Below the pieces are notes generated by a model that saw nothing but the letters and a program-made list of their open reading frames with translations, ran no database searches and was not told the origin of the DNA. The translations under genes were made by a program, and so were the position numbers. From Argyresthia goedartella (lineage: Eukaryota; Arthropoda; Insecta; Lepidoptera; Argyresthiidae), in the NCBI GenBank assembly GCA_949825045.1, contig OX463813.1, positions 434,001-498,000 of the forward strand: 64,000 bases of DNA, in the 5' to 3' direction. Below, in pieces: positions 18,621-62,225 of the stretch (within the stretch, counting starts at the first letter, position 1; each line of letters begins with the position of its first letter).

Positions 18621-20300
18621 TTAACCTTCGGCATACAAGGTGGGGTTTTGTAACTTGCCCTACAACGTGGGGTGTGACATACCCTAATAAAACCGCGCAT
18701 TGCAGTCATCACGAGGTGGTTGCATGAAAAATATTACAATAAACTGTTTTTTTACATCATTAGGAAGGACAAGTAATAAAAATCATATTTATATTTAGTT
18801 ATTATTTATTAGTTATCAAGGAACAAAAATCAGTCTATTCTGTACCACTAAGTTTAACACACAGTCGACATGAAGGGCCTTTTTTCAAATTATTTTTAAA
18901 TTTTGCTCTGAAATACTTCTAAAAATCAACTTAATAAACTCTCAATGAGCTAACATAAAACATAAAACCTCAAGAATAATAAAAATCTCTTCATCTTCAG
19001 TCTTCATCTTTGGAACAGTTTTCGCAAAGAAACTTGCAATGTTCGAGGCACAGCGGTATGGCACATTTCTCGCATATATATTTTGTTTTGCGGTCTTTCT
19101 TCCTAGGACATTTAGAACATCTTTGCACAGCATTAGTCTTTTTTGGCGGAGTGCATGATGGTTGGCCTAGATGTTCTCCTAGTCTTTTTCGCAGTTCTGT
19201 AGATAATCTTTCGTTCTCCGATCTTTTTCTCTGGTGATCTTCTAGTAAGGCAAAACCCAATTTTTTCAGAAAGTTTCGTCTGTAGTTAGTTTTTTTGTCT
19301 GTATATTATTGTTTGACAGATAGACTATCATCGCGTTTATACCTGCATGATTCACCAAAGCAAAAAATACAGTGAGTGGCCACCGGTGCGAGTTTCGGCA
19401 AACGTCATATGTTCTTGAAAGTTTGTCAACTACGTCTACACCACTTTTTGTCGCATTATAAAATGTGATGATTTCTGGTTTTTGTTTCGCTCCAGTTTCT
19501 TCGTTTATGTTTTGGTCATGGTGTAGTGTTGACAACAAATAAAAATTTTTTTTTGGTTTTGACACGTAGGAAACCAAAGTCGTTGTCTTTTGGAATCCGA
19601 ACACAGAAGTGTGCTCCTCGCGTCTTGTCTTGAATTCAGCGGGAAGACAGGTTTTATTTGCGCGTAAAGTCCCGACAATTGTGAGCTTGTGCTTCTCAAG
19701 TAAATTCTCTGCAGTCTCCAAACTGGTGAAGAAATTTTCCATCGTTATATTGCGTGAGGTACCCGATACGCATTGCACCATCCTGTCGACCAAATCATAT
19801 GGCTTGTTGCTTACAAAGTAAGGACTACCATCGGGTTGTTTTCCACAATAGATTTCCATGTTCATCGTATAGAACGTTTTGCTATCTACAAGAGCAAATA
19901 TTTTAATACCATACTTCGCTGGCTTCGATGGTATATGTTGTCTGAAACCACATCTTCCTCTGAACGCAACAAGCTCTTCGCCTAAAATGAGATATTCATG
20001 TGGTGAATACGCATCTTGGCAATTAGTAACAAAACATTCGAACACATGTCGAATAGGTGCCAGTTTATCCATCTCAGCTCTATTTGTCCTTGTCAACATG
20101 TCATCGAACCTCAGGTGATTGAGTAAGAAAGTGAATCTATTTCGTGTCATGATACCTGTGCCATCTGTCGCCCACAAGTCTTCTAAATTTTCTCTTCCTG
20201 CTCGAAATACGCCAGCCAGTATCAGTAGTCCAATAAATGCCTTAAGCTCTTCAAGTGACGTTTCAGATCTCGCGGAATCAACAGCCTCATCGGTTTTCTG
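18621..20300 (-). mobile_element. Truncated piggyBac transposon
   Basis: The left (3') end is a TTAA at 18621-18624 followed by CCTTCGGCATACAAGGTGGG, with a near-repeat ACAACGTGGGG about 35 bp inside, fitting a piggyBac terminal and subterminal repeat. The transposase lies on the minus strand. The 5' end is lost: at about 20300 the sequence changes abruptly to BEL RNase H on the plus strand with no terminal repeat or second TTAA. The element is therefore immobile by itself. Confidence 0.85.
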
Positions 20301-20306
20301 TGACAA
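18997..20306 (-). pseudogene. piggyBac transposase, N-truncated and catalytically altered
   Basis: The 346-codon part (20306-19266) shows family blocks ELKAFIGLLILAGVFRAGRE, FRGRCGFRQHIPSKPAKYG, KLTIVGTLRANK and SGVDVVDKLSRTYDVCRNS. After a frame break near 19262 the last 80 residues carry the Cys-rich RING-like domain: CSKCPRKKDRKTKYICEKC, then CLEHCKFLCENC. The family has three catalytic Asp. The first is Gly here (LILGEELVAFRGR), the second is Glu (NITMENFFTS), and the third is kept (SGVDVVDK). With the N-terminus also missing, this cannot be an active transposase. Confidence 0.9.
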
Positions 20307-22406
20307 TAGTAAATTCGTTCGAATTATGGGTTTTGCAGATGCGTCAAAAAATACCGCTTACGGCTGCTGTGTGTATTTGCGTGTCGTCGATAAGGCAGGT
20401 AATATAAAGGTGTCTTTGCTCTGTTCGAAGTCACGTGTTAATCCAATTAAACCAGACATGACAGTGCCCCGTTTAGAACTTAATGTTGCCGTGTTGCTAG
20501 CTAAATTAGCTTCAAGAGTACATGATACATTGTCACTTAAAATGAAAATCGATGAAGTCATTTTACACTCCGATTCTCAGATTGTACTGGCCTGGATTAA
20601 TACTCAAATAACAAAGCTTAGTGCCTACGTGGCGAACAGAGTAAGGGTACTTTCAGAACTTACTAACAAATTTACTTGGGCCTACATACAGACAAGTGAC
20701 AACCCTGCTGACTGTCTCAGCAGAGGAGTCATGCCTCACGGGCTAGAGCGTCACGCGCTTTGGTGGAGTGGTCCGCGATCGTTACATTCATGTGAGTACA
20801 TGCCGGAAACAAACCCATCTGTTCCTGGCGACTTACCTGAAACTAAAGACAACTCTGCATCTTTCAGCGCAATGGTATGTTCACTCTCTAGTTGTGAACA
20901 AAATCCGAATCTTGAATTTTTTGATTATTCAAATATTAACTAAATGCAAAGGGTTCTAGCTTACGTGTTACGTTTTGTCAAAAATGCGAGGTCTAAGCAT
21001 AATAAGAATAAATTGTGCTACTTAACAAGTAAGGAATTAAATGATTCACTGTATTTAATTATTAAGCATGAACAACAAAAACATTTTAAGAATGACTTAC
21101 ATGTTTTAAAAACGAAGAATACTATTGTAAAAGGAGATTTAAGACCTTTGAATCCGTTTGTTGATGGAAATGGTCTTATAAGAGTAGGAGGTCGATTACA
21201 TAATGCTTCTATTTCGTATCACAGAAACACCCAGCGCTCCTACCTCGGGATTCTAGAGTTACAGAATTAATAATTCAATATGAACATGCAAAAAATCTGC
21301 ATGCAGGCCCGAGGTTGGTGCTTTCATCGATAAACCAAAGGTTTTGGATTGTACAAGGCATGAGACAAGTAAAAAAGGTTTTACATAAATGCATAATTTG
21401 TTTTCGCCTAAAAGCAACTTCTTCCAAGCAACTAATGGGCTCTTTACCACACGACAGAGTCAATGTTTATCGGCCTTTTCAAAAAATTGGCATGGATTTC
21501 GCCAGCCCTATTTCAGTTAAATTTGCTAGAGTCAGAAAACCAGTAATAACAAAAGGATATGTATGTGTTTTCGTTTGCTTCGTGACAAAAGCGATTCATT
21601 TAGAGTTGGCTTCAGACTTAAAAACCGAAACCTTTCTTGCTTGCCTCAATTGGTTTGTCTCTCGTAGAGGGCTACCTACAGATATTTATTCAGATAATGC
21701 GTCCACGTTTAGATGCGCTAAAACTCAGCTAGACGAATTATATAAGTTACAAAATTCTGACACTCATCAAAAACAAGTGTATGATTTCGCAGCACAGAAG
21801 GGTATTAACTTCCATTTTTTGCCTTGTTATTCTCCTAATTTTGCAGGTTTAGCCGAAGCTGGAGTCAAAAGCATGAAATTTCATTTAAAAAGAGTCATGC
21901 AAACTTCATCACTTACATACGAGGAACTTAATACGCTTTTGTGTCAAATTGAGGCTGTACTCAATAGTAGGCCGCTTATGCCATTGTCTACTGATATAAA
22001 TGATTTCTCTTGTATCATTCCTGGTCATTTCCTTATAGGAGCACCTTTAAATTCGTATCCTGAACAGGAGAACTCATGTTTATCAAGATTACAGTCTTGG
22101 AAAATTTGCAACAATCTCAAACATTCATTTTGGAAAGAATAGAAAAATAACTACTTGAATATTTTACAATTTCGTCCCAAATGGACTGATGTACATCCTA
22201 ATATAAAAGTAGGATCACTTGTTATTCTCAAAGATGATAATGTAGCACCTTTGTATTGGCCTATGGCTAGGGTCATCCAAGTTTTTCCAGGATCTGATAA
22301 TAGAGTAAGGGTAGTAGAAGTAAAAACCGCGACTGGAAAAACACACAAAAGATGTATTTCAAAAGTATGTTTATTGCCTGTAGAGTGTAACAATACAAAC
22401 GTGTAG
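20300..22406 (+). pseudogene. BEL F1-left: RNase H and integrase remnant
   Basis: Plus-strand BEL/Pao pol lacking gag, protease and RT. It opens in RNase H (IMGFADASKNTAYGCC, VPRLELNVAVLL, ILHSDSQIVLAWINTQ, TSDNPADCLSRG). After a stop near 20943 it continues with the integrase zinc region (PFVDGNGLIRVGGRLHNAS), which is broken near 21270. The integrase core is MDFASPISVKFARV, then TKAIHLELASDLKTETF, YSDNASTFRC and GLAEAGVKSMK (DDE present). The end is the conserved LNSRPLMPLSTDINDF and the last domain (VILKDDNVAPLYWPMARVIQ) after a break near 22142. It is followed by its LTR. The abrupt 5' edge against piggyBac suggests a rearrangement. Confidence 0.9.
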
Positions 22407-22628
22407 CTTACAAATCTAGATTATAAGTTACTTTATTACTAATAAGATTTTCTTTATTAAATAATTTAAAACCTTAGTGTACCTATCTTGTCAAAATATT
22501 TTGATAACAATCACCGTTCAATAAAACTGTTTTGAATTGCATTTAGCTTCAAGTAGATAAGTAACAAATACCTTCTTTGGTGGTGGTAAGACTAAACATA
22601 GTCAGTCACCAATAGTTTTTTATAACTT

Positions 22629-24539
22629 TATTTATTTATTTATTTATTTATCCACAATTACATTATCTTTACAGGCTTAATCTAACGTGATAGTGTAGTA
22701 TATCTGTTATAATTCGGTTACCTTTAATATTTCATATTTTATAGCTTATTATAGCCAGTGCTACCCTTGTGAATTCTTTCAGAGCGCAGGAGAACAGATC
22801 TATCTCGTCCGCTATCAGGTTTAGAGTAGAGAGTGCGCGTGTGAGCGGCGCCTTGCCCAGCAAGTTAGTGCGCGCGTGTGGCACCGCTAGTAAGCGCGGG
22901 CGCCGCCGCCGCTGCACGTACCCGTTTGGTACGCACAGACCCATTATCTGCAGCATGTCCGCATTGTACACCTTTCCTCGTAATATTTTAAAAAGATACG
23001 TTGCTAAAGCCAGGTCCCTCCTAGCTCTGAGTTCGTTATACCCAACCATGCCTAGAGTAAACAAAGTTGGGTATAACAGTGGATAACCAGGGTAGACCCC
23101 ATACTGCCTCATATATAAATATCTTATAAATTTATTCTGCACTTTCTCTAACATTTCAATATATTTATGTTCATGTGGAGCCCAAATAATAGCATTGCAT
23201 TCAAAATGACTCCTCACCAATGCATTGTATAAAGCAGTGATCGCTTTGATATTTTTGAAGTTTTGCACCCTTCTTAGTATAAACCCTAAGTTCCTAAACG
23301 CTTTTTTGCAGCATTTAACTATGTGCTCTTTGAATGTCATATCAGCCCTCAGCGTCACTCCCAGATCTTTAACTTCACTGACTCTTGTCATGGGCGTCTG
23401 AGTCACTTCATAGTTATGCAACATAGGAGTGTGCGATCTAGTGAAACTAATTGTGACGCACTTAGAGGTGTTAAACTGCAGCTGGTTTTCTGCACTCCAG
23501 GCCACCACTCTATCGATATCCCTTTTCATTTTCCCACTGTCCTCTATATTTGTTATAGCGAGTGATAATTTGAGGTCGTCCGCGAATAAAAGGCACTTTG
23601 TGTCCTGAACTACGTCGGGTAAATCATTAATCATTAATATGAATTGCAATGGACCCAGATTACTACCTTGACTTACTCCTGACTTCGTAAAATATGGTTC
23701 AGAACTAAATCCATTGTATTCCACATACTGTTGTCTATTTCGCATATAACTAGCAAAATATCTAAGGAGATGTGGAGTGAAACCAAAGCCTGCCAGCTTC
23801 CTCAGTAGAACATCATTGTCGACCAAGTCGAATGCCTTCTTAAAATCGAAGTAAGCCGCATCAACTTGTAGCCCGCTATCCACTGCTGGCATTACTTCCG
23901 CCATGTAGCTGAGGAGGTTGCTGGTGGTGCTCCTCTCCGGGCGGAACCCATGCTGGGCATCGGACAATTGCGGACTCACCTGTGCAAGTATGGTCTGGTG
24001 GATAGCGGATTCCAACACTTTAGCTGTAGTTGATAATACAGCAACAGGTCTGTACTCCTCAACACTCGGTCCTGCTCGACCTTTGGGTACCGGCACCACT
24101 CGTGTTTTTTTCCATCTGACTGGAAACACCGCTGTACTTAGGCTTTGGTTATATATATGGAGTAGTGGCTCGGCTAATACAAAGCGACAATCCCTGATAA
24201 TGTAGGGCGGGATGCCATCTGGTCCCGCTGATCTTTTCGGCTTGAGCTGCCTCAGTGCCCGCTGCACCTCGTTCAGCTGCAGTCTCTCCAGATGTACTCG
24301 CGCAGCCCCGTTCCTGTCACCCGCTTCCACTATTGCTGCCTCCACGTTTAAATCAGCAGTTCTTGTACTATAAACCGAGTAAAAATATTCAGCAAACTCC
24401 TTTGCACATCGCTCCCCAGTCAGAACTTCTCCGTTTTTCAAAATCGTTTGTGCATTACGTGTGCCTTGTTTTGATTTTATAAAATTCCAGAACGATTTAG
24501 GATCTTTTGATAAATTTAGTTCTACCTTACTTTGATACT
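22629..24539 (-). mobile_element. LINE C: 5'-truncated copy of the LINE B family
   Basis: Inserted in the BEL LTR with duplication TAACTT at 22623-22628 and 24540-24545. The (TAAA)n tail lies at 22629-22650 on the minus strand. It starts in the endonuclease-RT linker, so it is 5'-truncated in the usual way of target-primed reverse transcription. The uninterrupted right-hand LTR copy shows the empty site. Confidence 0.9.
22732..24441 (-). CDS. LINE C reverse transcriptase
   Basis: A 569-codon open frame covering all of RT: LKPKRSAGPDGIPPYIIRDC, VPKGRAGPSVEEYRPVAVLS, QHGFRPERSTTSNLL, YFDFKKAFDLVD, SGVSQGSNLGPLQF, the catalytic LLFADDLKLSLA and DLGVTLRADM. It ends VALAIISYKI. It retains the linker (GERCAKEFAEYFYSVYSTRT) that LINE B has lost. 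Catalytic residues are intact but the endonuclease is absent. It is about 70 percent similar to LINE B by eye. Confidence 0.92.
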   Translation of the reverse strand: MKNGEVLTGERCAKEFAEYFYSVYSTRTADLNVEAAIVEAGDRNGAARVHLERLQLNEVQRALRQLKPKRSAGPDGIPPYIIRDCRFVLAEPLLHIYNQSLSTAVFPVRWKKTRVVPVPKGRAGPSVEEYRPVAVLSTTAKVLESAIHQTILAQVSPQLSDAQHGFRPERSTTSNLLSYMAEVMPAVDSGLQVDAAYFDFKKAFDLVDNDVLLRKLAGFGFTPHLLRYFASYMRNRQQYVEYNGFSSEPYFTKSGVSQGSNLGPLQFILMINDLPDVVQDTKCLLFADDLKLSLAITNIEDSGKMKRDIDRVVAWSAENQLQFNTSKCVTISFTRSHTPMLHNYEVTQTPMTRVSEVKDLGVTLRADMTFKEHIVKCCKKAFRNLGFILRRVQNFKNIKAITALYNALVRSHFECNAIIWAPHEHKYIEMLEKVQNKFIRYLYMRQYGVYPGYPLLYPTLFTLGMVGYNELRARRDLALATYLFKILRGKVYNADMLQIMGLCVPNGYVQRRRRPRLLAVPHARTNLLGKAPLTRALSTLNLIADEIDLFSCALKEFTRVALAIISYKI

Positions 24540-24879
24540 TAACTTGATATAAGTCATTTATTTTTTAAGTAGTTTTTAACTATTGCTATTTTACAAAGGG
24601 TTGTCAAAACTTTGTCAAGCTCAATTTAAAAAATGTTTTTGTTTTGCCCTGGCCAATATGTTGGCAATACAACATAACTGCTTAATTTCCTATGTTGGTT
24701 ATACTGATTTTGACAGATTTTGACTTCCGCCTTCTTCTTCTCGTTCACATTCGTTGGTGTAACACGTCTATCTTGACGTCGTCTATATTTCTCACAATAC
24801 AACGTTTCCGTACCAATTTACTCGTGGGTTTAATAAATAAATCAGCCCTATAGACACAAAAACTTATAGTTCAAAACAT

Positions 24880-24896
24880 TGGTCCTTCGAGCCGGA
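24880..24896 (+). other. BEL F1 primer-binding site (tRNA-Tyr type) at the viral junction
   Basis: One base after the LTR end comes TGGTCCTTCGAGCCGGA, which is complementary to the 3' end of insect tRNA-Tyr including CCA (17 bases). Viral L sequence begins immediately afterwards. A match of this length by chance inside a viral gene is very unlikely. Confidence 0.8.
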
Positions 24897-25860
24897 TTAT
24901 GGAGGTCCAACAAAATTCTTCCAAAGTTCCCGATGAAATTGTAATGTACCATTGCGTTGATGGGGCTATGAGAGAAGTGAGCCACAGTGAGGGCATTTGA
25001 AGTGATGTTGGACATGGTATTCGTTAGGGTCGGGAGTTGATCATTGGTGACACATGTGACTCTAGACCAACGTTTGGTCTCTAAACCTCTGATTAAGCCC
25101 CTGAAGATAGGAACTTTCCCATAAACGAGATAATCTGCTGATTGTAGAGTTTCATCCTTGTTGATAATCAACCCTAATTTCGATGTTCCCTCTTCGATTG
25201 CAGTCATGATGTTTTGATTCTCACGAACAATCCCTCCAATTGCATCTACTAGCTCTGATTCAGTCCTAGTCGTCTGGATCTTGTATTTGCCGCATATGAC
25301 TTGATTGTCACCTTGGGCTAACAAAGTCGTCTTGGTATTTCTGTTCATTGATTCTCTCCTGATAACAAGCAAATTGACCACGCTCCATCCTTTTTGTCTT
25401 AATCCTTCCAAGCCGCCATCTGGCTCATTCCAGCAGACTGTCTCGTCTGTTTTATTTGTTACTATGTCGTTATTGACATCCATCAAGTCTGGTCGTCCAT
25501 TGTAATATATGAGACTCTTCTGAAAGAACTCATGGGTTCTTGAAATCAGACCACTTTAACCCAAGAATTGATCCATGACTTTGAAGACGGGTCTATTCGC
25601 TTGATCCCTCTGATGATTGTTCCATTTCGTGTAATCAATATGGTTCGCAATACAGATGTGATTGTAGTCACTTTCTCCCTGTCCAGAAGAGTTATCCATC
25701 AGCTTTTTTACTACAGTGTTGAGATCATCTGCCATAGTGAGTCCTTTGAACAGAGGGACGAAGTGTGTCTTAATCAGGTGTTCAGTGAGAACAAAATACT
25801 CCCTCAATCGCCATGACATGAGTGAGAAGAATCTGCCCTTTATCTTTATTTGTCCGAACG
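24897..25860 (-). pseudogene. Endogenous rhabdovirus-like L: RdRp core (copy 1)
   Basis: Minus-strand frames 25867-25556 and 25486-24848 hold the polymerase core of a mononegavirus L protein. In order: [20 protein letters not shown] (pre-A/F region), [12 protein letters not shown] (motif A), [12 protein letters not shown] (motif B), the signature catalytic [12 protein letters not shown] (GDNQ, motif C), and a downstream stretch ending in the bridge toward the capping domain. One frame break lies near 25500-25556. L is the RNA polymerase of negative-strand viruses and acts in the cytoplasm; here it is a genomic fossil with no other viral gene nearby. The last codons of the open frame are not viral: they are the tRNA-Tyr site and inverted LTR. 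The closest family appears to be Rhabdoviridae. Confidence 0.92.
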
Positions 25861-28042
25861 ATTCCACTCAAGTTCAATGATTCAGAAGTTACTGTCCCAG
25901 AGGGATCTCTCAGGGAGGTTTTAAGATCTCTTGACGACCTGACAAGTTCTTTTACCCCTTGTCCATTTTATCTTTATACAATGCAGGGAGCAATGTGGTC
26001 GAGACACTGATCATTCCAAAAAGACGTACATCATTTATGTCGGCAAATATCCATATTCGGTTGTATTGGAATCGGAAGCTTTTAGGCTCTGTGTAACGTC
26101 GTATATATAGTTGCCGCATAAAGGTCCTTCCCATTATTCCAAGATCCATGTTATTTATGGGATACGACGGAGGCACCTTCTAAGGAATCTCCATGAACAG
26201 ACTTTCAAAGCCATCTGTTCGCCACAAGGTGAGCAGAGCTGGGTGTTCACTGATTTCATTGATTAGATGAAGGCCTACTCCAAGTAATGCCTCTCTCGGT
26301 CTCTTTAACTCTGAGATAGATCGCCTGTAAATACAGTGGATGGAAGATGCTCTTATCAATCCATCCAAGACCCCTTCCATGAATGACCTCGGGACGACCT
26401 TCTTTTGAATGCTCAATGGGTATATACTTGTGTCGTCGCACCTCGAGTCCCCGCTCATCTTTAGGTCTCCATATAAGAATCCACACGCTCGTCCTATGTG
26501 GAAGCTCTGTTCAGGTGGGGAAACCTTCTCCCATTTCCCCATAGGAAGATTCTTTACTTCTCTCTTCCGAGACCAAGGTGTCTCGTCTGGTTTCCACTTT
26601 TTAATCACATTTGCCATGTTCTCATGGATGTAATCCATCGGTGTGTCCAGCTTCACCTCAGTGATTTCTCTTAGACATTCTGCACAGTCGACGTGATGGT
26701 GGAAGACTCCTTGTTCGGTGGACCCATCCATGAGCTCTGTCACAGTGGCTTGAGCGTTAATCAATAGGCTCTGATGCATGAAGTCATAATTCACTGAGTT
26801 CAAGGTCGACAGAGTATCAGTTGTAGTGCAAACCCATGTGAGTTTCGAGGGACTCTGAGCGGTATAACCTGCTGAGCTCTGTCTGGAACATGCGAATCGA
26901 TGAAGGGCCGAACCTGTCCTTTTGGCACCTTCCGATTTGCCATCCCATTTTTCTCCTGTTAAAGCTTCCAGATTCTGAAGTATCCCTTTCCCGAGATTGG
27001 AGTCTGGATCTACAAACCATCCGATAGCCTCCCTCATTTTGGCAGCACGTTTGATCAGAGCGATTTTTGTCTCTCTCTCCCATTGTCGAAGTATGCTGGT
27101 GGTTTCTGAAGTTCGAGATCCTAAGTAAGCCTTATACGGCCCCCTTTCGTCTTTGTATTTGTGGAGTCCTTCAGGAACTAGGGTGGAGACATAATACGCG
27201 TGTGGTGGGGCATCTGTACAAGGAGTGCAGGGCAACCCTTGTCGGATTGGACTCGACAACAGCTCCATTGGATGAGGCACTGTGGCACCGAAGACTTTGC
27301 TTCCCCATGACTCATGCCTTAGTGTGTCAGCTTTAGTCGATGAGCATGTCCAAATCTCGTCTGTGCATCTTCTCAGAGCTATTTTGGCTAGACCCTCTAT
27401 TGTCTGGATTTCGCTCTTTACGATGATTGTTTTGATTCTTTTATCTATGCGTTTAGAAAAAACTGTTCTTATCGTTTTCGAATTTTGGAAGAGACCCACC
27501 AAGCCTTGAACGATCCCCAGGTAAGTGGCAGACATGTATTCACTCACAAATCTGGGAAAAAGAGGCCTTATCGACCTAAGGTACTCGATCAACGGTCCCT
27601 CATTGTAATTGAGGTATTCAATGGCTGATTTCATGATGTTGTTTTCAATAGATCCGGACTGCTCGATCAATGTGTTTTTTATCTCCTCTTTAATGATGGT
27701 GTTAGGGTTTACACTTCCCATAATGTTCAGTCCGGTCGGATCTTCTAGGAGCTTCTTGAAGGATTCTGTAGACGTTGAAGCAAATCTCGGTGACCCTACT
27801 CTTGTGGCCAGCCTCTTACACATTTGATCGCCATGATGATACACCTTTTTCCAGAAAGTTAAGCTTTCAGTCACCGGATCTGGAAAGCCCCGGATTAAAA
27901 AGCGGGTGAGAGACATGCCGCACGCACCCCCTAGACACAGATCTAAATATGTCATCGTTCGGAGACGACGAAAGCGTGAATCCAATAAGTTCTTGCAGAT
28001 CTGCCGTCTCTGACGTAGATTTTGAGGATACACATAGGCGAA
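25861..28042 (-). pseudogene. Endogenous rhabdovirus-like L: capping to methyltransferase part (copy 1)
   Basis: The 621-codon frame (28045-26180) includes GGACGMSLTRFLIRGFPDPV, then PLFPRFVSEYMSATYLGIV, WGSKVFGATVPHP and YLGSRTSETTSILRQWE, hallmarks of the region behind the RdRp and of the PRNTase capping domain. A TAG at 26180-26182 interrupts it. The next part (26176-25952) continues into the methyltransferase region, and a one-base loss in a C run near 25954 shifts the frame again. The part ends around LNLSGIVRT, close to the L C-terminus. In a normal L this part follows the RdRp. Here it precedes it on the coding strand, so the gene order is permuted. Confidence 0.9.
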
Positions 28043-28045
28043 CAA

Positions 28046-28480
28046 TGTTTTGAACTATAAGTTTTTGTGTCTATAGGGCTGATTTATTTATTAAAACCAC
28101 GAGTAAATTGGTACGGAAACGTTGTATTGTGAGAAATATAGACGACGTCAGGATAGACGTGTTACACCAACGAATGTGAACGAGAAGAAGAAGACGGAAG
28201 TCAAAATCTGTCAAAATCAGTATAACCAACATAGGAAATTAAGCAGTTATGTTGTATTGCCAACATATTGGCCAGGGCAAAACAAAAACATTTTTTAAAT
28301 TGAGCTTGACAAAGTTTTGACAACCCTTTGTAAAATAGCAATAGTTAAAAACTACTTAAAAAATAAATGACTTGATATCAAGTTATAAAAAACTATTGGT
28401 GACTGACTATGTTTAGTCTTACCACCACCAAAGAAGGTATTTGTTACTTATCTACTTGAAGCTAAATGCAATTCAAAACA
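28046..28480 (-). repeat. BEL F1 LTR (right, inverted)
   Basis: 435 bp. On the plus strand it starts TGTTTTGAACTATAAGT and ends GCAATTCAAAACA, the reverse complement of the left LTR. It lacks LINE C and so shows the uninterrupted LTR. Its inner end is separated from viral sequence by only caa (TTG on the minus strand), which equals the first bases of the primer-binding site. Confidence 0.92.
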
Positions 28481-28601
28481 GTTTTATTGAACGGTGATTG
28501 TTATCAAAATATTTTGACAAGGTAAGTACAGTAAGGTTTTAAATTATTTAATAAAGAAAATCTTATTAGTAATAAAGTAACTTATAATCTAGATTTGTAA
28601 G

Positions 28602-29530
28602 CTACACGTTTTTATTGTTACACTCTACAGGCAATAAACATACTTTTGAAATACATCTTTTGTGTGTTTTTCCAGTCGCGGTTTTTACTTCTACTACCCT
28701 TACTCTATTATCAGATCCTGGAAAAACTTGGATGACCCTAGCCATAGGCCAATACAAAGGTGCTACATTATCATCTTTGAGAATAACAAGTGATCCTACT
28801 TTTATATTAGGATGTACATCAGTCCATTTGGGACGAGATTGTAAAATATTCAAGTAGTTATTTTTCCATATCTTATCTTTTCTATCTTATCTTTCCAAAA
28901 TGAATGTTTGAGATTGTTGCAAATTTTCCAAGACTGTAATCTTGATAAACATGAGTTCTCCTGTTCAGGATACGAATTCAAAGGTGCTCCTATAAGGAAA
29001 TGACCAGGAGTGATACAAGAGAAATCATTTATATCAGTAGACAATGGCATAAGCGGCCTACTATTGAGTACAGCCTCAATTTGACACAAAAGCGTATTAA
29101 GTTCCTCGTATGTAAGTGATGAAGTTTGCATGACTCTTTTTAAATGAAATTTCATGCTTTTGACTCCAGCTTCGGCTAAACCTGCAAAATTAGGAGAATA
29201 ACAAGGCAAAAAATGGAAGTTAATACCCTTCTGTGCTGCGAAATCATACACTTGTTTTTGATGAGTGTCAGAATTTTGTAACTTATATAATTCGTCTAGC
29301 TGAGTTTTAGCGCATCTAAACGTGGACGCATTATCTGAATAAATATCTGTAGGTAGCCCTCTACGAGAGACAAACCTATTGAGGCAATAAAGGCTTTAAA
29401 ATCGGAATATTTGCCACTAAAAACAGGTATGGTTATATTTGGCAACTTAGTTTGTAAGTTTTGACAAGAATGTTTGGGTTCACTTTCAGATAATTCCTTT
29501 AAAGCGATCTGTTCCAATAGCTCGTTGATC
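28602..29530 (-). pseudogene. BEL F1-right: gag start fused to integrase end
   Basis: On the minus strand 29530-29380 encodes a BEL gag segment (LPNITIPVFSGKYSDFKAFI). At about 29375 this jumps directly to integrase sequence equivalent to FVSRRGLPTDIYSDNA in the left copy, in another frame. Integrase then continues (29251-28850: NFHFLPCYSPNFAGLAEAGV, LNSRPLMPLSTDIN) and the C-terminal domain (28853-28602) is almost identical to the left copy. Protease, RT and RNase H are deleted. Its LTR lies at 28046-28480. The gag edge abuts LINE D at about 29531 with no LTR. Confidence 0.88.
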
Positions 29531-31665
29531 AAGGTACTTCACATCAAGAAAAATCTTTTTATCATCTGCATATAACAGGAATCTGCATTCACGAAATACT
29601 GTGCAAATGTCATAGAGATAGGCGTTATAGAAAAGAGGACCCAAATGAGAGCCCTGTGGTACCCCCGATGGTATGTTTATGAAGTTGGAATTATGTCCCC
29701 CAACAACCACAGCCTGCTGTCTATTAGATATATACGATGTAATCCACCGGTAGAGGTCACCGTGTATTCCCAAGTGGAATAATTTGCGCAGCAGTATGAC
29801 ATGGTCTACACGATCGAAAGCTTTCTTGAAATCTGTGTAGACCACGTCAACCTGTCTGCGTCTGTCCATCATGCCGAGAACAAAATTCAAAAATTCAGAA
29901 AGATTACTAACGGTGGATCGACTCTTAAGGAACCCGTGTTGCTGTGGGGGGATTCCGCGCGAAACAATGGGGTAAATACTGTTGTAAACGGCTTTTTCGA
30001 ATACTTTGCCAAACACATTGAGGATGGATATTGGCCTATAATGTTCAATATTATCCTTAGTGCCCTTTTTATGGATCGGAAGGATATGCGCTTTCTTCCA
30101 AATATTCGGATACGAGCCTTCCTTCAGCGATCTGTTGAACAGGATGCACAGAGGAAGACACAACTGTTTCGCGCATCGTACTATGAAATATGGTGGTATC
30201 TTGTCACTACCTGCACCACCATTGATATCAAGGGACTGAAGCAATTCAAGTATAGAGTCAGTGTGAAACTGAGTGGTACTGATAGTGTTGTTATCGTCAC
30301 AAAACGGTGGAGCCAAAGGAAGATCGGGATAGGATGTTGCTGGTTGACTGAATACTGAGCCAAAAAAATCGTTAAAACCTTTACAAATGCTAGGACCATC
30401 GGAATACTGCACACCATTGTAGACTAGTGATTGCGGGTAGGCCGATTTACATCTACGTGCTTTTACAAATGACCAAAATTGCTTAGGGTTGTTTTTTATA
30501 TTTGTTTGCATTGATTCAATATAGCGTTTAAAACATTCATCTTGAAGAGCCTTCTGCCTTTTGCGTAGTATTGAGAATTCAGTGTAATCTAAAGGATTAT
30601 TGTAGAGTTTCCATTTCTTGTGACAGTTGGCTTTAACCCTGTTTATTTTAATAAGTGCCTCGCTAAACCACACAGGATGTGACGTTTTTTTCCTTCTGGT
30701 GTCCTTAGGTATATGATCACTAATTGTCTTATTAATAGTAACATAAAAAATATTAATCGCATCATCAAGAGTGCCCTCATTGAGGCATTCGGACCAGTCG
30801 AACTTGCTGAGTATATTACAGATTGCATCATAGTCGCCCTTGTGAAAGCGGTGTCTAGGACAGTTTGCTTCGGTAAGAGGTTCGGATGTTAGGTCGTTGG
30901 CAAGTATTTCTAGGGAAGGGTGGGCTAGATCTTCCTTAATGAGCGGGACGGATGAACAAAAAAAAAAAAAAAAGAACGTGAAGTTTCAAGTGCGAAGTTG
31001 CTGAAAATTAAGTCTAAGGTATGACCGCTCTCATTGGTAATAGTGTTGAACTGATTAAATTCAAGTGCCTGAAATTCATCGACTAAATCAGTAGCTGCTT
31101 CTTGGACTGCTATAAGTTCCCTGCGCTGATGCTCAACACCGGTGGGTGACCATCGCAAGCAACGCAAGTTAAAATCGCCAGCGACAATAAAATTTGAATC
31201 AGGGTTTAAGGTTTTAACATGGTTCACGGATGAAATTAAATTATTAATGTGGAGGTGGAGAACCGGATAGAGGCCGCTTTTTTCGGGAAGATATGCAACA
31301 CATACGCATAAGTCCTTGGAAGTACCACGAAGAGCCTTAGCGGGTATGGTAACCCATAGGTATTCCGTGCTAGACGTAGTCCATTCAGGACGCGCAACCG
31401 CGTTTAGTGTGCGACGTGCGATAACCAATACTCCACCACCATCCTTCCTACCCGTGGCGATACGGTCGCGGTCAAGGCGAAATACATCGTAACGGTCATC
31501 GCATAGTTCGGAGTCCAGCACACCGTCTACGAGCCAAGATTCAGTAATAATTATCAGATCAAAATTGTTTGCTAAAATACTATTATATAATGTTAACGTC
31601 TTTGTCCTCAGTCCTCTGACGTTCTGATAATAAATATTAAATTGATTAGCCGCGAATGTAGTTCA
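29531..31665 (-). pseudogene. LINE D ORF2: endonuclease and reverse transcriptase, 3'-truncated
   Basis: Reading the minus strand from about 31665, the frame gives FNIYYQNVRGLRTKTLTLYN, DRKDGGGVLVI-like TGRKDGGGVLVIARR, FIVAGDFNLRC and HTLDLIFSNF (endonuclease). A 15-base A run at 30957-30972 breaks the frame. From 30673 RT follows: NGGAGSDKIPPYFIVRC, EHYRPISILN, QQHGFLKSRSTVSNL, YTDFKKAFDRVD, SGVPQGSHLGPL and the catalytic LLYADDKKIFLD. RT stops a few residues later where BEL gag begins (about 29531). CR1/Jockey-type, as LINE A. Confidence 0.9.
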
Positions 31666-33093: not shown

Positions 33094-33264
33094 CCGATAA
33101 CACGTCTTGTTAGTTTAAGCTTCTCGGACGAACTCGATTCTTCTTCTTCGATCTTAAACTAAAGCGGTTTAATAGAATGGATCGATCGATAGCACAAAAT
33201 AAAAAATTATGGAAAAGTTGAAATCACAGAACACAACTCTGGTTGAAATCTACAGTGTTGAGTG

Positions 33265-34668
33265 ATCAACCCTAATTTCGATGTTCCCTCTTCGATTGCA
33301 GTCATGATGTTTTGATTCTCACGAACAATCCCTCCAATTGCATCTACTAGCTCTGATTCAGTCCTAGTCGTCTGGATCTTGTATTTGCCGCATATGACTT
33401 GATTGTCACCTTGGGCTAACAAAGTCGTCTTGGTATTTCTGTTCATTGATTCTCTCCTGATAACAAGCAAATTGACCACGCTCCATCCTTTTTGTCTTAA
33501 TCCTTCCAAGCCGCCATCTTGCCCATTCCAGCAGACTGTCTCGTCTGTTTTATTTGTTACTATGTCGTTATTGACATCCATCAAGTCTGGTCGTCCATTG
33601 TAATATATGAGACTCTTCTGAAAGAACTCATGGGTTCTTGAAATCAGACCACTGTAACCCAAGAATTGATCCATGACTTTGAAGACGGGTTTATTCGCTT
33701 GATCCCTCTGATGATTGTTCCATTTCGTGTAATCAATATGGTTCGCAATACAGATGTGATTGTAGTCACTTTCTCCCTGTCCAGAAGAGTTATCCATGAG
33801 CTTTTTTACTACAGTTTTGAGATCATCTGCCATAGTGAGTCCTTTGAACAGAGGGACGAAGTGTGTCTTAATCAGGTGTTCAGTGAGAACAAAATACTCC
33901 CTCAATCGCCATGACATGAGTGAGAAGAATCTGCCCTTTATCTTTATTTGTCCGAACGATTCCACTCAAGTTCAATGATTCAGGCGTTACTGTCCCAGAG
34001 GGATCTCTCAGGGAGGTTTTAAGATCTCTTGACGACCTGACAAGTTCTTTTACCCCCTTGTCCATTTTATCTTTATTCAATGCAGGGAGCAATGTGGTCG
34101 AGACACTGATCATTCCAAAAAGACGTACATCATTTATGTCGGCAAATATCCATATTCGGTTGTATAGGAATCTGAAGCTTTTAGGCTCTGTGTAACGTCG
34201 TATATATAGTTGCCGCATAAAGGTCCTTCCCATTATTCCAAGATCCATGTTATTTATGGGATACGACGGAGGCACCTTGTAAGGAATCTCCATGAACAGA
34301 CTTTCAAAGCCATCTGTTCGCCACAAGGTGAGCAGAGCTGGGTGTTCACTGATTTCATTGATTAGATGAAGACCTACTCCAAGTAATGCTTCTCTCGGTC
34401 TCTTTAACTCTGAGATAGATCGCCTGTAAATACAGTGGATGGAAGATGCTCTTATCAATCCATCCAAGACCCCTTCCATGAATGACCTCGGGACGACCTT
34501 CTTTTGAATGCTCAATGGGAATATACTTGTGTCGTCGCACCTCGAGTCCCCGCTCATCTTTAGGTCTCCATATAAGAATCCACACGCTCGTCCTATGTGG
34601 AAGCTCTGTTCAGGTGGGGAAACCTTCTCCCATTTCCCCATAGGAAGATTCTTTACTTCTCTATTCCG
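33265..34668 (-). pseudogene. Endogenous rhabdovirus-like L, copy 2
   Basis: Colinear with 25167-26565 of copy 1 and differing at roughly 1 percent of bases. Frame 34641-33880 (253 codons) holds the late L region and is open where copy 1 has the TAG (TAC here at 34279-34281) and where copy 1 lost a C. Frame 33965-33207 holds motifs [36 protein letters not shown] and [10 protein letters not shown] in one unbroken run. It contains the same unnatural joint between the L C-terminus and the RdRp start. The left edge (33265) falls inside the RdRp against non-viral sequence; the right edge joins a 47-bp BEL LTR piece. Confidence 0.92.
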
Positions 34669-34715
34669 AATAAATAAATCAGCCCTATAGACACAAAAAC
34701 TTATAGTTCAAAACA
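34669..34715 (+). repeat. 47-bp 3' end of the BEL F1 LTR attached to L copy 2
   Basis: AATAAATAAATCAGCCC to TATAGTTCAAAACA equals the last 47 bp of the F1 LTR (from its poly(A) signal to its end). It sits directly against L copy 2 on the left and LINE F on the right. The rest of the LTR is missing. Confidence 0.92.
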
Positions 34716-40828: not shown

Positions 40829-41372
40829 TGTTCGATTCCAAATCGATATTCGATCGATGGTTTCGGAACGGCCATTTTGAATTTGACGTTGCTGCCAACC
40901 TAGCAGTTTTTGACAACTGAGAGACGAAAAGCCCTCGCAATGTAACGCGTATTGATTAGGGCATTGAAATTAAATCGCAAGCCATCTGGAATGTATTCGG
41001 GTTCCCCTCAGGATTGTCTATATAGCTGAGTGTGTTGTGGTTCCCCGAACCAGATAAAGTTCGCATTTACGTGGCCGATTGGTTTTTCCCACGTAACATA
41101 ACCTGTGTTGGAACACTGTGCTCGTCGAAGCTGGCCTGCCAGCCATACCTGGTTGGCTGAAGAACCTGTCTACCAAGAAGAGCCTAGGGTGCACCCGGGC
41201 CTTGCAGAGAGACAGGAGTTTGACGGGAACGAAGCACAGACCAGGTTAGATCGACTCCATAAGTATTAGCTCGGTGAATCGCCGACGTTCACACTTCTTG
41301 GCATCTGATCGCTACGCTACCTCGTAGCTGATGGGCCCCTGCGAGGTCATTGGGTGCCGAGAGGCCTGAACA
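40829..41372 (+). repeat. E1 5' LTR
   Basis: TGTTCGATTCC to GGCCTGAACA, 544 bp, followed by TTT and the primer-binding site. Confidence 0.93.
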
Positions 41373-41988
41373 TTTTGGTAGCAAGAGCGTGGTTTCCTGA
41401 GATTTGCAGCCGTCAAGGGCTCCAGGAACCCACGATTTGGGACTATCAATCTGTAGGTATAGGCGGTTATTAGCTAACTTGGTGTTGTTCCTGTATCCAC
41501 ATAGATTGGTAGTATTGTAAGCTATAAGTCTATTGCTGGTAGTAGACAGACAGATATTACAGTTTTCCCTAAATGACCAGTTGTACTGAGATGTGACTCA
41601 GAATAGTAGGTACTCAACTTAGGTACATTGTAGGTGAATTGAAATTTGCATTGAAGTACCAGTTAGTCAATCTATTAGTGGTCTAGTAATGCTAATGAAT
41701 GTTTGGTTAACATAGGTAGTTACATCTATTGATAGCAGGCTATTACATTGTTTTCAGTTTATAGCAATTTATAACTTGAACTAATATTGACTATCTGTGT
41801 GTGTTATAATGATAAAGGGAAACTAAATTGTATTTACAGAATTTATATAGATATAAAACTCGGTTCCTATTGTTTAAGGAAAACAGCATTGTTTAAGTTG
41901 TGGTTTAGGGTTCCCTCGTTTGGGTTATAGACTGGAGGGTCCAATAAAATTGAGTTACTGCAAATTGTGAGTAAGTATCGTTCCGATC

Positions 41989-43740
41989 ATGTCGTTATCT
42001 GAAATCCAGAAGGGTGTTTCTAAGGAACTCAGATGGTTTTCCTCCGCACACGGTCTGATAGACCGTTTAGATAGGCATGATGTGGTATTGGAGCGGTCTA
42101 TGGACGTTAAGGAACGTTACAACAGGGTGCTCGAATTGTCCGCGCAGGCGGAATCAGTTGATGGTTGCGCACCTGACAGGCTGTCACAGTTGCTAGGGGA
42201 TGTCGACCAATGTATGGAGATGGCAGCTGCTATCACGCAGAAGGCTGCGGACATACGTAGACAGCGCGAGTCCAGCCATGGTGGTGACATTGAAGCACCT
42301 CTGCCGCTTCAGGGTTCAGGGTCCAGGTTACCTGCCATAACTATGCCTACTTTTGACGGAGTGTCCGGTGAATGGATGAGCTTCATCAATCTGTTCGACA
42401 GTTTGGTGCACATGCGATCGGACATTACCAAGTCTGTCAAGATGGCTCAGCTGGTGGCAGCATTGAGGGGTGAGCCTAGGGAGCTGGTCGCTCATTTGAC
42501 AGTTACGGAGGGTAACTATGAAACGGCCAGACAATTGTTGGTCAGACGTTACCATAACAAACGGAGGTTGGCCGATGCCCAACTGAACCGTTTGTTTAGT
42601 ATCCCGGTTGTGAACAAGGTCGGGGCCATACAGACGGAGGTTTTGAACCCATTGTTGTCCGTCACCAAGGCTCTAGAGAATCTTGGACTTCCGGTTGGTG
42701 AATGGTCGTACCTACTGTTGTACATTGTACTTTCCCGCCTACCCGCTGACGTGCAGACTCGTTTCGAACAGTCTCACGGGAGGTCGGCCGAGGACCTGCC
42801 CGCCTTCTCCGACTTGGTCGGATTCTTGGAAGAGGAGGCTCGACGGGCAGAGAATTTGGGGTTGACGGTCACCCATCCTTCGGAGCCACAGAGAGCTGCC
42901 GGGAGCGCTGTGAGTAGGGGCCCTCCGACGAGGAAGGACCGCACCAACCGGCAGTCGTATGGGACTGTGAGTGCATTGACCCCACATAGTGAGACCTGCC
43001 CATGTTGTAGGCAGATTGGCCATGCTGTGGCCAATTGCAATAAGTTCGGGGAACTTAGGGTTGAGGGACGGCGCCGGATGGCCAAGCAGCGGAGCTGGTG
43101 TTTCCTGTGCCTCGGGCCACACATGGCTAGGGACTGCACGCGCACAAAATTGTGCGGATATTGTGGTGGGGCCCACAACAATCTGTTGTGCATGAACCGG
43201 TCCGGCCAACAGCCTCCACAGGGCCGTATCCAGGGTGACACGGCATGGGGCCCTGAGAATTCGTTTGCGACTCGGAGCGCAACTCAGGGGCCAATGTCCC
43301 CACGTGCACAGGGCGGTACTAGGGTGCAGGGCCGCACTCAGGGTCATCACATGGGGGGCCCTGAGTTTTCGGTTGCGACTCAGCATCCGACTCAGCGGGC
43401 AATGGGGCCACAAGCACGCAGCCACCCAGGGGTGCAGGGCCGCACTCAGGGTCATCACATGGGGGGCCCTGAGTTTTCGGTTGCGACTCAGCATCCGACT
43501 CAGCGGGACATTGGGTATGTTGAGCAGGCCGTAACGGGCGGGTGGCATGGGACACCTTCGAGCTATGCGGATGCGGTTCGGACGCCGCCTCAGTTGTCGC
43601 CCCGCTCGTCGCCTCGTCCTCGTCGGTCGCATGTGATGTCTCCCCCGCTCATGGAGCGGCCACGGTTGAATTCACGCCCACCCCCCTTCGGGGGGCGTCG
43701 TAGGGTGGCAATGGAACCGGCGCGTGGGCCATTTGTATAA
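41989..43740 (+). CDS. E1 Gag
   Basis: 583 codons starting MSLSEIQKGVSKELRWFSSA. The capsid-like region includes LPAITMPTFDGVSGEWMSF and YHNKRRLADAQLNRLF, typical of BEL/Pao gag. Three zinc knuckles lie at about residues 337-400: CPCCRQIGHAVANC, CFLCLGPHMARDC and CGYCGGAHNNLLC. A Gln/Gly-rich tail repeats a unit containing GRTQGHHMGGPEFSVATQ twice, with a related shorter unit before. The stop TAA at 43738-43740 replaces a CAA of E2, cutting 24 codons that E2 still has. Confidence 0.92.
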   Translation: MSLSEIQKGVSKELRWFSSAHGLIDRLDRHDVVLERSMDVKERYNRVLELSAQAESVDGCAPDRLSQLLGDVDQCMEMAAAITQKAADIRRQRESSHGGDIEAPLPLQGSGSRLPAITMPTFDGVSGEWMSFINLFDSLVHMRSDITKSVKMAQLVAALRGEPRELVAHLTVTEGNYETARQLLVRRYHNKRRLADAQLNRLFSIPVVNKVGAIQTEVLNPLLSVTKALENLGLPVGEWSYLLLYIVLSRLPADVQTRFEQSHGRSAEDLPAFSDLVGFLEEEARRAENLGLTVTHPSEPQRAAGSAVSRGPPTRKDRTNRQSYGTVSALTPHSETCPCCRQIGHAVANCNKFGELRVEGRRRMAKQRSWCFLCLGPHMARDCTRTKLCGYCGGAHNNLLCMNRSGQQPPQGRIQGDTAWGPENSFATRSATQGPMSPRAQGGTRVQGRTQGHHMGGPEFSVATQHPTQRAMGPQARSHPGVQGRTQGHHMGGPEFSVATQHPTQRDIGYVEQAVTGGWHGTPSSYADAVRTPPQLSPRSSPRPRRSHVMSPPLMERPRLNSRPPPFGGRRRVAMEPARGPFV

Positions 43741-43812
43741 TGGGACCCTCTGGCGTATAGCTGCCTACCTGATCGGTTACAGGCACAGTGGGGCCCCGGG
43801 GGCCCTCGCTAG

Positions 43813-45337
43813 GAATTTGCGGCCCAACAATTTGTTGCCCCCCAACCGGAGACGGTGGTGTTACCGATCGCCTCTGTGCTTGTTTGGGATTTGGCGGGCA
43901 ACCCAACATATGTTCGCGCCCTATTAGATTCTGGAGCTCAGGGCTGCATTGTATCGAATGATTTAGCAAAATGGTTGGGCCTCAATATAATTAATGTATC
44001 GCTGCCGAGGAAATTGGTCCCTGCTGGGGATTACAGGGCAACCCTTCACGGGTTTTGTGATGCCTCTGAACGAGGGTTTGCGGCAGCGGTTTATTTGCGA
44101 ACCGTCACCTCCACCGGGGAGGTCGAAGTGCGTTTGGTGTTGGCAAGGGGCAAGGTAGCGCCTATTCGGACAAGGATGACGATTCCAAAACTGGAACTGT
44201 CCGGGGCTGCTCTTTTGACCAAACTTTTGAATCACACTCTAACAGTGTTGCGTGGGTCAGTGGTTTTGGAGGATACGGTGTACGCGTGGACGGACAGCCA
44301 GATTGTTTTGTGCTGGCTGAAGGCTTCGGTCCATAACTTAGAGGTTTTTGTTGCGAACCGTGTCTCCCAGATTGTGTCGTCTGAGGTCCCACTGACCTGG
44401 AGACATGTACCAGGAGAATTGAACCCGTCTGATTGTGCATCCAGGGGATGTCGGGCTCCTGAACTCGTTAGACACCATTTGTGGTGGGGACCACCCTGGC
44501 TTGCCAAGAGAGAATCGGACTGGCCCCACAGCTCCACCAAGGCGGTACATCTCGAGCTCGTTGCTGATCTCTCGACAGAGGCTTTCATTGCTTGTTTGGA
44601 TAGGTTTGTTTCTCGAAGGGGACTTCCAACTTTGATCCGCTCTGATAACGGCACTAACTACATCGGTGCGGAGCGATACTTACGAGAGATAGTCAAATTT
44701 TTTGAATGTAAATAAAGTGGATATTGGAACGGCTCTCTCCCGTCGGGGTATACAGTGGACCTTCAGCCCACCGATTTGCCCCCACTGGGGTGGGATTTTT
44801 GAGGCCGTAGTTAAGTCAGCTAAGACGCACTTGGGGCGTATAGTAGGTCAGACCGCGCTGACTTTTGAGGAGCTCGCGACATTGTTTTGTAAGATCGAGG
44901 CCGTTCTCAATTCGCGACCGTTGTGTCCGCTCAGCTCGGATCCAAATGACCTGGAGGCTCTGACCCCAGGCCATTTCTTGATAGGACAGCCACTTAACGC
45001 GTTGCCCGAGCACCCCTTCGAGGGAGTGAAATTGTATCGGTTGTCAAGGTATCAGATGTTGCAGCAGTTTACTCAGAATTTCTGGAAGCGTTGGTCGCTC
45101 GAGTATCTGCATATCTTACAACAGCGCCTTAAGTGGACTGACAAAACCAGCCCCCCTAGTGTTGGTGACCTCGTTCTGGTTAAGGATGCTAACCTACCGC
45201 CACTACGTTGGCGCAGGGGGCGCATTGTTAACTTGTTCCCTGGCAAGGACGGGACCCCCCGGTCTGCGGAGGTTCTAGTAGGAGGCTCGGTCCTTAAACG
45301 AGCGGTAGCAACGTTGTCTCGGCTGCCCGTAGATTAG
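43813..45337 (+). pseudogene. E1 Pol: protease, RNase H, partial integrase; RT absent
   Basis: After a TAG at 43810-43812 the same frame as gag runs through protease (RALLDSGAQGCIVSNDLAKW). It then passes directly into RNase H (ATLHGFCDASERGFAAA, IPKLELSGAALLTKLL, YAWTDSQIVLCWLK, PGELNPSDCASRG). No RT motif exists between them. Next a second deletion joins DWPHS to STKAVHLELV, removing the integrase zinc domain and first catalytic Asp that E2 has. One extra T near 44700 shifts the frame, and the end of integrase (HWGGIFEAVVKSAK to LSRLPVD) is read at 44702-45337. E1 cannot make RT or a full integrase. Confidence 0.92.
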
Positions 45338-45369
45338 GGGACAGGTGGGTGCCTGTCCGGCTGGGTGAT

Positions 45370-45913
45370 TGTTCGATTCCAAATCGATATTCGATCGATG
45401 TTTTCGGAACGGCCATTTTGAATTTGACGTTGCTGCCAACCTAGCAGTTTTTGACAACTGAGAGACGAAAAGCCCTCTCAATGTAACGCGTATTGATTAG
45501 GGCATTGAAATTAAATCGCAAGCCATCTGGAATGTATTCGGGTTCCCCTCAGGATTGTCTATATAGCTGAGTGTGTTGTGGTTCCCCGAACCAGATAAAG
45601 TTCGCATTTACGTGGCCGATTGGTTTTTCCCACGTAACATAACCTGTGTTGGAACACTGTGCTCGTCGAAGCTGGCCTGCCAGCCATACCTGGTTGGCTG
45701 AAGAACCTGTCTACCAAGAAGAGCCTAGGGTGCACCCGGGCCTTGCAGAGAGACAGGAGTTTGACGGGAACGAAGCACAGACCAGGTTAGATCGACTCCA
45801 TAAGTATTAGCTCGGTGAATCGCCGACGTTCACACTTCTTGGCATCTGATCGCTACGCTACCTCGTAGCTGATGGGCCCCTGCGAGGTCATTGGGTGCCG
45901 AGAGGCCTGAAAA
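45370..45913 (+). repeat. E1 3' LTR
   Basis: 544 bp, differing from the 5' LTR at only about three positions, including the terminal CA changed to AA. Followed by the ATGTC duplication. Confidence 0.93.
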
Positions 45914-45918
45914 ATGTC

Positions 45919-56397: not shown

Positions 56398-56918
56398 TGT
56401 TCGATTCAAAATCGATACTCGATCTATGGTTCCGGAACGGCCATTTTGAATTTGACGGAGCTGCCAACCGAGCAGTTTTTGACAACTGACAGACGAAAAG
56501 CCCCCGCAATGTGACGCGTATTGATTTGGGCATTGAAATTAAATCGTAAGCCATCTGGAATTGTATTCGGGCTCCCCTCAGGATTGTCTTATAGCTGAGT
56601 GTATTGTGGTTCTCCGAACCAGATAAAGTTCGTATTTACGTAATATAACCTGTGTTGGGACACTGTGCGCGTCGAAGCTGGCCTGCCAGCCATACCTGGT
56701 TGGCTGAAGAACCTGTCTACCAAGAAGAGCCTAGGGTGCACCCAGGCCTTGCAGAGAGACAGGTGTTTGACGGGAACGAAGCACAGACCAGGTCAGATAG
56801 AATCTATTTACTTTAGCTCGGTGAATCGCCGACGTTCTTGCTTCTTGGCATCCGATCGCTACGCTACCTCGTAGCTATGGGCCCCTGCGAGGTCATTGGG
56901 TGCCGAGAGGCCTGAACA
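56398..56918 (+). repeat. E2 5' LTR
   Basis: 521 bp, TGTTCGATTCAAAATCG to GGCCTGAACA. It differs from the E1 LTR far more than the internal regions do. Confidence 0.95.
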
Positions 56919-61639: not shown

Positions 61640-61671
61640 GGGACAGGTGGGTGCCTGTCCGGGCGGGTGAT

Positions 61672-62192: not shown

Positions 62193-62225
62193 ATCTTCGT
62201 CCATTAGGTACTTTAACTGATCAAA
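62193..62225 (-). pseudogene. T1 transposase-like gene, exon start
   Basis: An acceptor aaaaacag precedes FDQLKYLMDED on the minus strand, which continues across E2 into ETETVLVQEP. This shows that E2 entered an exon. Upstream exons of T1 (62230-62572) were not recognised. Confidence 0.5.

Follow-up and report, generated by a model that had tools for sequence, protein, structure and literature searches.

A 64,000-nt stretch of the genome of the lepidopteran Argyresthia goedartella (the window; C7:434001–498000, contig OX463813.1, of a 1.1-Gb assembly of 89 contigs) contains a chimera in which a circularly permuted piece of a rhabdovirus polymerase (L) gene lies between two inverted long terminal repeats (LTRs) of one BEL/Pao retrotransposon family, with one end of the viral piece joined directly to the retroelement's primer-binding site (PBS). 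The structure is probably a product of BEL reverse transcription that took viral L nucleic acid as its template, by strand transfer at the PBS and probably also at the R/U5 end of the LTR. Positions below are those of the window unless a contig is named, and L coordinates follow the numbering of vesicular stomatitis virus (VSV) L (chain 5a22). The parts of the structure, including 3′ untranslated regions (UTRs), a long interspersed nuclear element (LINE), the RNA-dependent RNA polymerase (RdRp) part of L, and four joints (J1 to J4), are as follows.

20320–22405, plus strand: 3′ part of BEL pol (left arm), from the protease/RNase H region to integrase; Pfam Peptidase_A17, Integrase_H2C2, and rve; 98–99% copies in C12
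22406–24658, plus strand: BEL 3′ UTR, split by a later LINE (about 22630–24551) containing RVT_1; from comparison with the uninterrupted right arm
24659–24878, plus strand: BEL LTR, 220 nt, TG...CA; matches nt 1–220 of an ordinary BEL copy
24880–24897, plus strand: 18-nt PBS complementary to the tRNA-Tyr 3′ end, forming J1 with L, which may share its final ~10 nt
24898–25845, minus strand: L ~853 down to ~533 (RdRp part), from Pfam and VSV L chain matches
25838–25865, no strand assigned: junction J2 within L, linking ~1575 to ~533 in A-rich sequence; identical in nine copies
25846–28045, minus strand: L ~1575 down to ~854 (connector, capping, and end of RdRp); last ~30 nt at the LTR not securely L
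28046–28265, minus strand: inverted BEL LTR, 220 nt, forming J3 with L; from a comparison of genome copies
28266–29392, minus strand: inverted arm, made up of BEL 3′ UTR and the end of pol; from arm comparison
29393–29554, minus strand: fragment of BEL gag, brought next to the inverted arm by an internal deletion; copies in C12
33256–34668, minus strand: second L copy, ~762 to ~533 joined to ~1575 to ~1340, with the same J2 (33921–33971); 98.66% to 25159–26570
34669–34715, plus strand: last 47 nt of the LTR (possible R-U5), with L inside and flank GCGGGTG outside, forming J4; from sequence comparison

The viral sequence occupies 24879–28045 on the minus strand. Pfam identified PF00946, PF14318, and PF21080, and VSV L was the best solved chain for all four open pieces of the viral sequence: 26183–28054 matched L 870–1457, 25955–26179 matched 1468–1535, 25559–25867 matched 533–630, and 24851–25555 matched 633–858. 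Timema and sigmavirus proteins were among 14 matches, and IMG/VR held no relative of the 225-aa RdRp piece. Along the minus strand, the capping and connector domains come first and the RdRp second, so that a single linear 3.15-kb L piece is rejected; instead, L is circularly permuted, reading from ~854 to ~1575 and then from ~533 to ~853. The initial annotation of this DNA, which had described about 3.15 kb of viral polymerase sequence between two inverted BEL LTRs, was correct about the arrangement and the LTR family, and is amended as to collinearity. In a protein of the butterfly Pieris macdunnoughi (P0013), L capping-side sequence likewise stands ahead of RdRp-side sequence; it may be a further L fossil, permuted or in tandem, or the order may be an artefact of the gene model.

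The two BEL arms are inverted relative to one another, belong to one BEL/Pao family, and are 97–99% identical. Pfam matches to PF05380 (5e-24) and Integrase_H2C2 (5.7e-8) place the family, together with an rve match of 25.8 bits that falls below the cut-off, and it has a TG...CA LTR of 220 nt with a tRNA-Tyr-type PBS by the 5′ LTR. The true LTR length was read from 5′-end BEL copies in the genome, where 41 matches to the BEL repeat were obtained (66 candidates, 40 scored). The repeat as a whole (~560 nt) was rejected as the LTR, since its remainder is BEL 3′ UTR, and it is in this UTR, not in the LTR, that the LINE sits. Both LTR edges are clean (...CA / TG...). The earlier statement that LTR and viral edges coincide to within a few bases is amended on the left by the 18-nt PBS ahead of L and on the right by the bases not securely L. 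Its report of no target duplication agrees with our comparison, in which the sequences flanking the two LTR edges are not a direct duplication; an ordinary BEL pair (n = 1) shows a 5-bp duplication, TTTCG. In C12, the inverted arm is part of a BEL(−) that extends further, to a leader and part of a 5′ LTR. The distal end of this inverted BEL, where a 5-bp target duplication would be read, is cut short in C12 and missing from the window.

At the left edge (J1), the order is LTR, T, TGGTCCTTCGAGCCGGAT, and then antisense L without a gap. This 18-mer occurs once in the window, against 0.01 expected in shuffles, and is complementary to the tRNA-Tyr 3′ end, CCA included; a tRNA-Tyr gene with the matching 3′ end and a 16-nt intron was confirmed once in the genome. 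Joints were counted in the window and in two paralogous stretches of C12 (392–440 kb and 9.368–9.428 Mb), with up to four errors tolerated per match, giving seven copies of J1, nine of J2, six of J3, and three of J4. The full PBS is present in all seven LTR(+)-L joints of these three stretches; a further L segment, at C12:9383711, has lost its J1 edge. Seven BEL ends that lack L have leaders matching over the first 10 nt past the LTR and diverging thereafter: C12:427403 and six of the eight five-prime-type LTR loci examined, of which the remaining two (L046 and L048) are L joints. The PBS of ordinary BEL copies is only 9–10 nt long. The virus meets the inner side of the LTR, next to the PBS, in seven copies, which is the position expected of a reverse-transcription chimera (as in PMC5177903). 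Across the genome, the LTR end plus PBS was found with at most one mismatch at 11 places (reversed control, 0): the seven L joints and four sites on C19, where a related LTR (87–88% over its last ~120 nt) and the full PBS are followed by non-L sequence. The full PBS is not exclusive to the chimera, yet L starts right at its end. The four C19 places (C19:23559500–23630650; L060–L063) share the same non-L sequence. Some 2 kb downstream in L060, part of the same LTR recurs in opposite orientation, so that inverted LTRs are found there with no virus.

For the tRNA itself, a 22-nt pattern occurred at 12 places, and of the four fetched, one was the tRNA-Tyr gene and three were tRNA 3′ fragments with CCA. 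A standard ARAGORN run on those four named no tRNA-Tyr and called one tRNA-Ser at the same place. A shorter, 16-nt motif occurred at 328 places (reversed control, 0), and none of the five fetched proved to be a tRNA gene; in IMG/VR, the tRNA motif had no match. Loci L055, L057, and L058 are not tRNA genes but pieces of about 40 nt from the 3′ half of tRNA-Tyr, CCA included, and are candidates for longer primer copies or tRNA-derived PBS relics.

At the right edge (J3, six copies), the inverted LTR ends in CA, followed by three bases as in the BEL leader and then by sequence running into L ~854. The distance from the NPA/DPA motif to YLD is 25–26 residues in five relatives (VSV, Muscina sigmavirus, Timema, P0010, and P0011) and in two unpermuted L fossils (L001 and L002), compared with about 35 codons in the window; P0007 and P0009 cover the same region without the NPA/DPA motif and were left uncounted. 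As many as ~30 nt here may thus be peculiar to this virus, an insertion, or filler. Both LTR edges fall near L 853/854, and on these alignments the two L edges are neighbours in the circular coordinates of a unit of ~3.13 kb, with exact contiguity not established. By our estimate, the chance of two independent edges lying so close in such a unit is about 1–2%.

The initial annotation had missed a second L copy with the same J2, at 33256–34668, and the structure is not confined to the window, as it recurs in C12; the same-genome search for LTR-L joints that had been recommended found them in both C12 stretches. The second copy ends at J4 in LTR nt 174–220, with CA ahead of GCGGGTG, the LTR being cut at nt 174/175. 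The identical end and flank are found at C12:435612–435658 and C12:9411657–9411703, and the right end of the insert is therefore CA/GCGGGTG in three of three loci. Another truncated LTR in C12 begins at nt 176, directly before PBS-L. Two LTR cuts at one place point to an RNA 5′ end, which suggests that the 47-nt piece would be R-U5. Of the natural ends of reverse transcription, then, the PBS end is seen at J1, and the start of R is only suggested by the truncations.

Three loci on two chromosomes carry the joints, and they differ in their nested insertions and private mutations. The window from 7773 to 48706 is a segmental duplicate of C12:9368001–9428000, with main single-copy blocks of 97.6–98.9% interrupted by different insertions, and the C12 chimera units are also tandem. 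The L copies differ by 0.66–1.62% and share few variants (eight of nine segments compared, the ninth being too short). The chimera arms differ by 0.7–2.3% and ordinary BEL copies mostly by 1–3%, with L037 and L038 at about 7–10%; distances among plus arms, minus arms, and ordinary BELs are star-like. Because the joints recur in paralogous stretches, one origin with duplication soon after is the simplest history, and the seven J1 sites do not represent seven captures. Transposition of the chimera as a family of its own is rejected: its seven J1 sites are confined to the three paralogous stretches, and BEL copies examined on other contigs differ beyond the LTR.

Several of these observations were counted in favor of capture by reverse transcription. 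Plus-strand strong-stop DNA ends at the end of the PBS, and this is where L starts; the full PBS occurs in all seven L joints, whereas elsewhere another leader follows after 10 nt; both LTR edges lie near L 853/854; the edges lack a direct duplication, in contrast to the TTTCG of the ordinary pair; the LTR is cut at nt 174/175 (J4) and 176; and the genome has a tRNA-Tyr gene whose 3′ end fits the PBS. The initial annotation had argued for joint reverse transcription or joint integration, in part from the coincidence of edges, which by itself is slim proof: any two BELs that landed in a more extensive L fossil would likewise put LTR edges on both sides of L. Joint reverse transcription remains the best explanation of the PBS-L joint, with which the absent duplication fits. 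The reasoning of the annotation was incomplete, however, and the case is made by three features: a PBS right at the joint, the permutation of L, and the nearly identical position in L of the two edges. In the proposed sequence of events, BEL plus-strand DNA ending in a copy of the tRNA primer would pair with L-sense complementary DNA (cDNA) over about 10 nt and be extended to form J1, a second strand transfer misdirected onto viral cDNA. Minus-strand strong-stop DNA could similarly jump onto viral RNA to form J4, a misdirected first transfer, although this step is less sure than that at J1. The product would then enter the chromosome with its U5 end at GCGGGTG, and tandem and segmental duplication would yield the C12 and C7 copies.

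Certain facts weigh against this account. PBS bases and L bases are indistinguishable at J1, and the four C19 sites carry the full PBS without L, so that the PBS need not have been copied from a tRNA in the chimera event. The R-U5 label is putative, being read from the truncations at LTR nt 174/175 and 176. The insert's left end in C12 is at BEL nt ~585 with no LTR, so that either integration there was not canonical or the end was lost later, and the pattern of both LTR ends with a target duplication was not found. Finally, all joints go back to one origin, with no independent repeat. The "direct trace" of virus entry claimed earlier stays an inference, and the window is a segmental duplicate of an amplified array and not a pristine record.

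A more specific version, which we hold tentatively and consider rather less likely than not, is that the template was circular L-sense viral cDNA (L ~533–1575 closed on itself) and that the inverted arm arose by fold-back copying of the primer strand. The BEL plus strand would prime through its tRNA-Tyr copy, extend one turn to its own annealed end, switch by few-base homology onto its own LTR flap, and copy this strand back. One molecule would then account for the permuted L, J2, J3, the neighbouring edges, the one-sided PBS, and the inverted arm, so that no separate molecule is required for the inverted BEL on the right. A 20-nt insertion common to the inverted arms of the window and C12:423778 and to one chimera plus arm, with 6 of its 20 nt in two other chimera plus arms, is found in none of the nine ordinary BELs (of 12 rows) in which the site can be read, which favors copying within the chimera lineage. 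In addition, both arms of C12 unit c share one substitution absent from all others of 19 rows (L037 and L038 having been dropped beforehand and L032 having given no row). A simple fold-back is opposed by another substitution in the unit c plus arm, shared with three plus arms and missing in its own minus arm; by some minus-arm variants that also occur in ordinary BEL copies; and by the 20-nt insertion itself, which is absent from the window plus arm despite its presence in the minus arm, and from both arms of unit c. The star-like arm distances do not separate fold-back from independent insertion.

Ordinary nesting of elements is the strongest of the other explanations, and we regard it as unlikely: a pre-existing tandem array of L fossils would have received two independent, opposite BEL insertions, followed by deletions and duplications. 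The region is crowded with nested elements, tandem L carries the same junction at two places in the window and at nine overall, and another virus has left tandem L arrays in other parts of the genome. The longer BEL(−) to which the C12 inverted arm belongs also counts for nesting, and the star-like differences indicate that BELs were active at that time. Two inserted BELs would nevertheless meet L with the outer ends of their LTRs, and this fails at the left LTR, which is followed by the PBS, so that L lies on the inner LTR side; insertion cannot produce this. The coincidence of both edges at nearly the same L position and the 20-nt insertion, shared by two inverted arms and a chimera arm and by none of the readable ordinary BELs, also speak against nesting.

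Joining at the DNA level is less probable still. Here, extrachromosomal viral DNA made by another reverse transcriptase would have been end-joined to BEL DNA or to a broken BEL leader, as the insert's left end without an LTR might suggest, and a unit joint in C12 (LTR minus its first 8 nt / pol) does resemble end joining. However, the BEL break would have to coincide with the end of the ordinary leader's tRNA match, with the next 9 nt of L continuing that match, a coincidence that we estimate at about 1 in 50 with the conserved NPA codons allowed for. An assembly error is the least credible possibility, and a very slight one; inverted repeats of 97–99% identity are prone to misassembly, but the same joints recur at three places on two chromosomes amid different nested insertions and private mutations.

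Other L fossils occur in the genome. Capping-domain matches number 27, of which seven are inside the three chimera stretches and the others elsewhere, and the fossils compared outside these stretches (L001, L002, and C22) are more distant. In C22:30950506–30978797 (L059), six capping-domain matches lie mostly about 4.6 kb apart. Two near-identical units spaced by 4645, each with a 1136-aa open L frame in normal domain order, belong to a distant virus (~22–24% identity), and L059 is a tandem L array of young age. At C31:17163692–17195991, three L matches with 894-aa open frames are spaced by about 15.8 kb, and one with a 1602-aa open frame lies at C31:23860011. Elsewhere in the window, a satellite occupies 1–2415 in tandem (period 111 bp, 21.7 copies), and another BEL-like element is present in two copies about 94–96% alike (40829–45915 and 56397–62194), the former being shorter owing to an internal deletion in pol.

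The capture of RNA-virus sequence by BEL/Pao elements has already been published, and the present chimera is unusually informative in its mechanistic marks. For example, in the portions of PMC5177903 available, eBxnv-1 is described as a nodavirus RdRp inside a nematode Bel/Pao element, for which the authors propose copy-choice recombination during reverse transcription. It resembles the chimera in having an RNA-virus polymerase sequence within BEL/Pao and differs in that the RdRp comes from a positive-strand virus and sits as a single copy between LTRs in direct orientation, whereas the chimera has a negative-strand virus L that is permuted, antisense, and PBS-joined, with an inverted arm and nine copies. 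In Aedes cells, according to the parts of PMC6797480 consulted, virus/LTR-retrotransposon hybrids and circular viral DNA are formed, and an endogenous viral element of cell-fusing agent virus (CFAV) is flanked by a Ty3/gypsy LTR and gag. There too, viral RNA was made into DNA with LTR retrotransposons, partly in circular form, and a germline element lies beside an LTR. The evidence in that case is mostly episomal read pairs, with no nucleotide-level strand-transfer joints in the text covered, unlike the chromosomal fossils with PBS and R/U5-like joints seen here for a rhabdovirus. Likewise, the sections of PMC7642597 seen describe Anakin, mosquito BEL-Pao elements with a chuvirus glycoprotein gene, which also combine BEL-Pao with a negative-strand RNA virus gene in many copies. 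Theirs is an env-like gene in potentially active elements, in contrast to a broken antisense L whose copies lie in duplicated stretches, with no sign of transposing as a unit. Among the matches listed from the open literature, with most subscription journals outside, no title or abstract opening described a permuted virus piece joined at a PBS.

The entry of RNA viruses without a DNA stage into animal genomes has mostly been inferred from their nearness to retroelements. A joint at the priming site of reverse transcription, together with a permuted virus piece, gives such a route nucleotide-level predictions that are testable, and the route itself, in which strands transfer to viral nucleic acid and a circular intermediate may take part, can be compared with the circular viral DNA of infected insect cells. 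If true, the circular version would make the chimera a fossil, in the germline, of a viral DNA circle trapped when strand transfer went astray.

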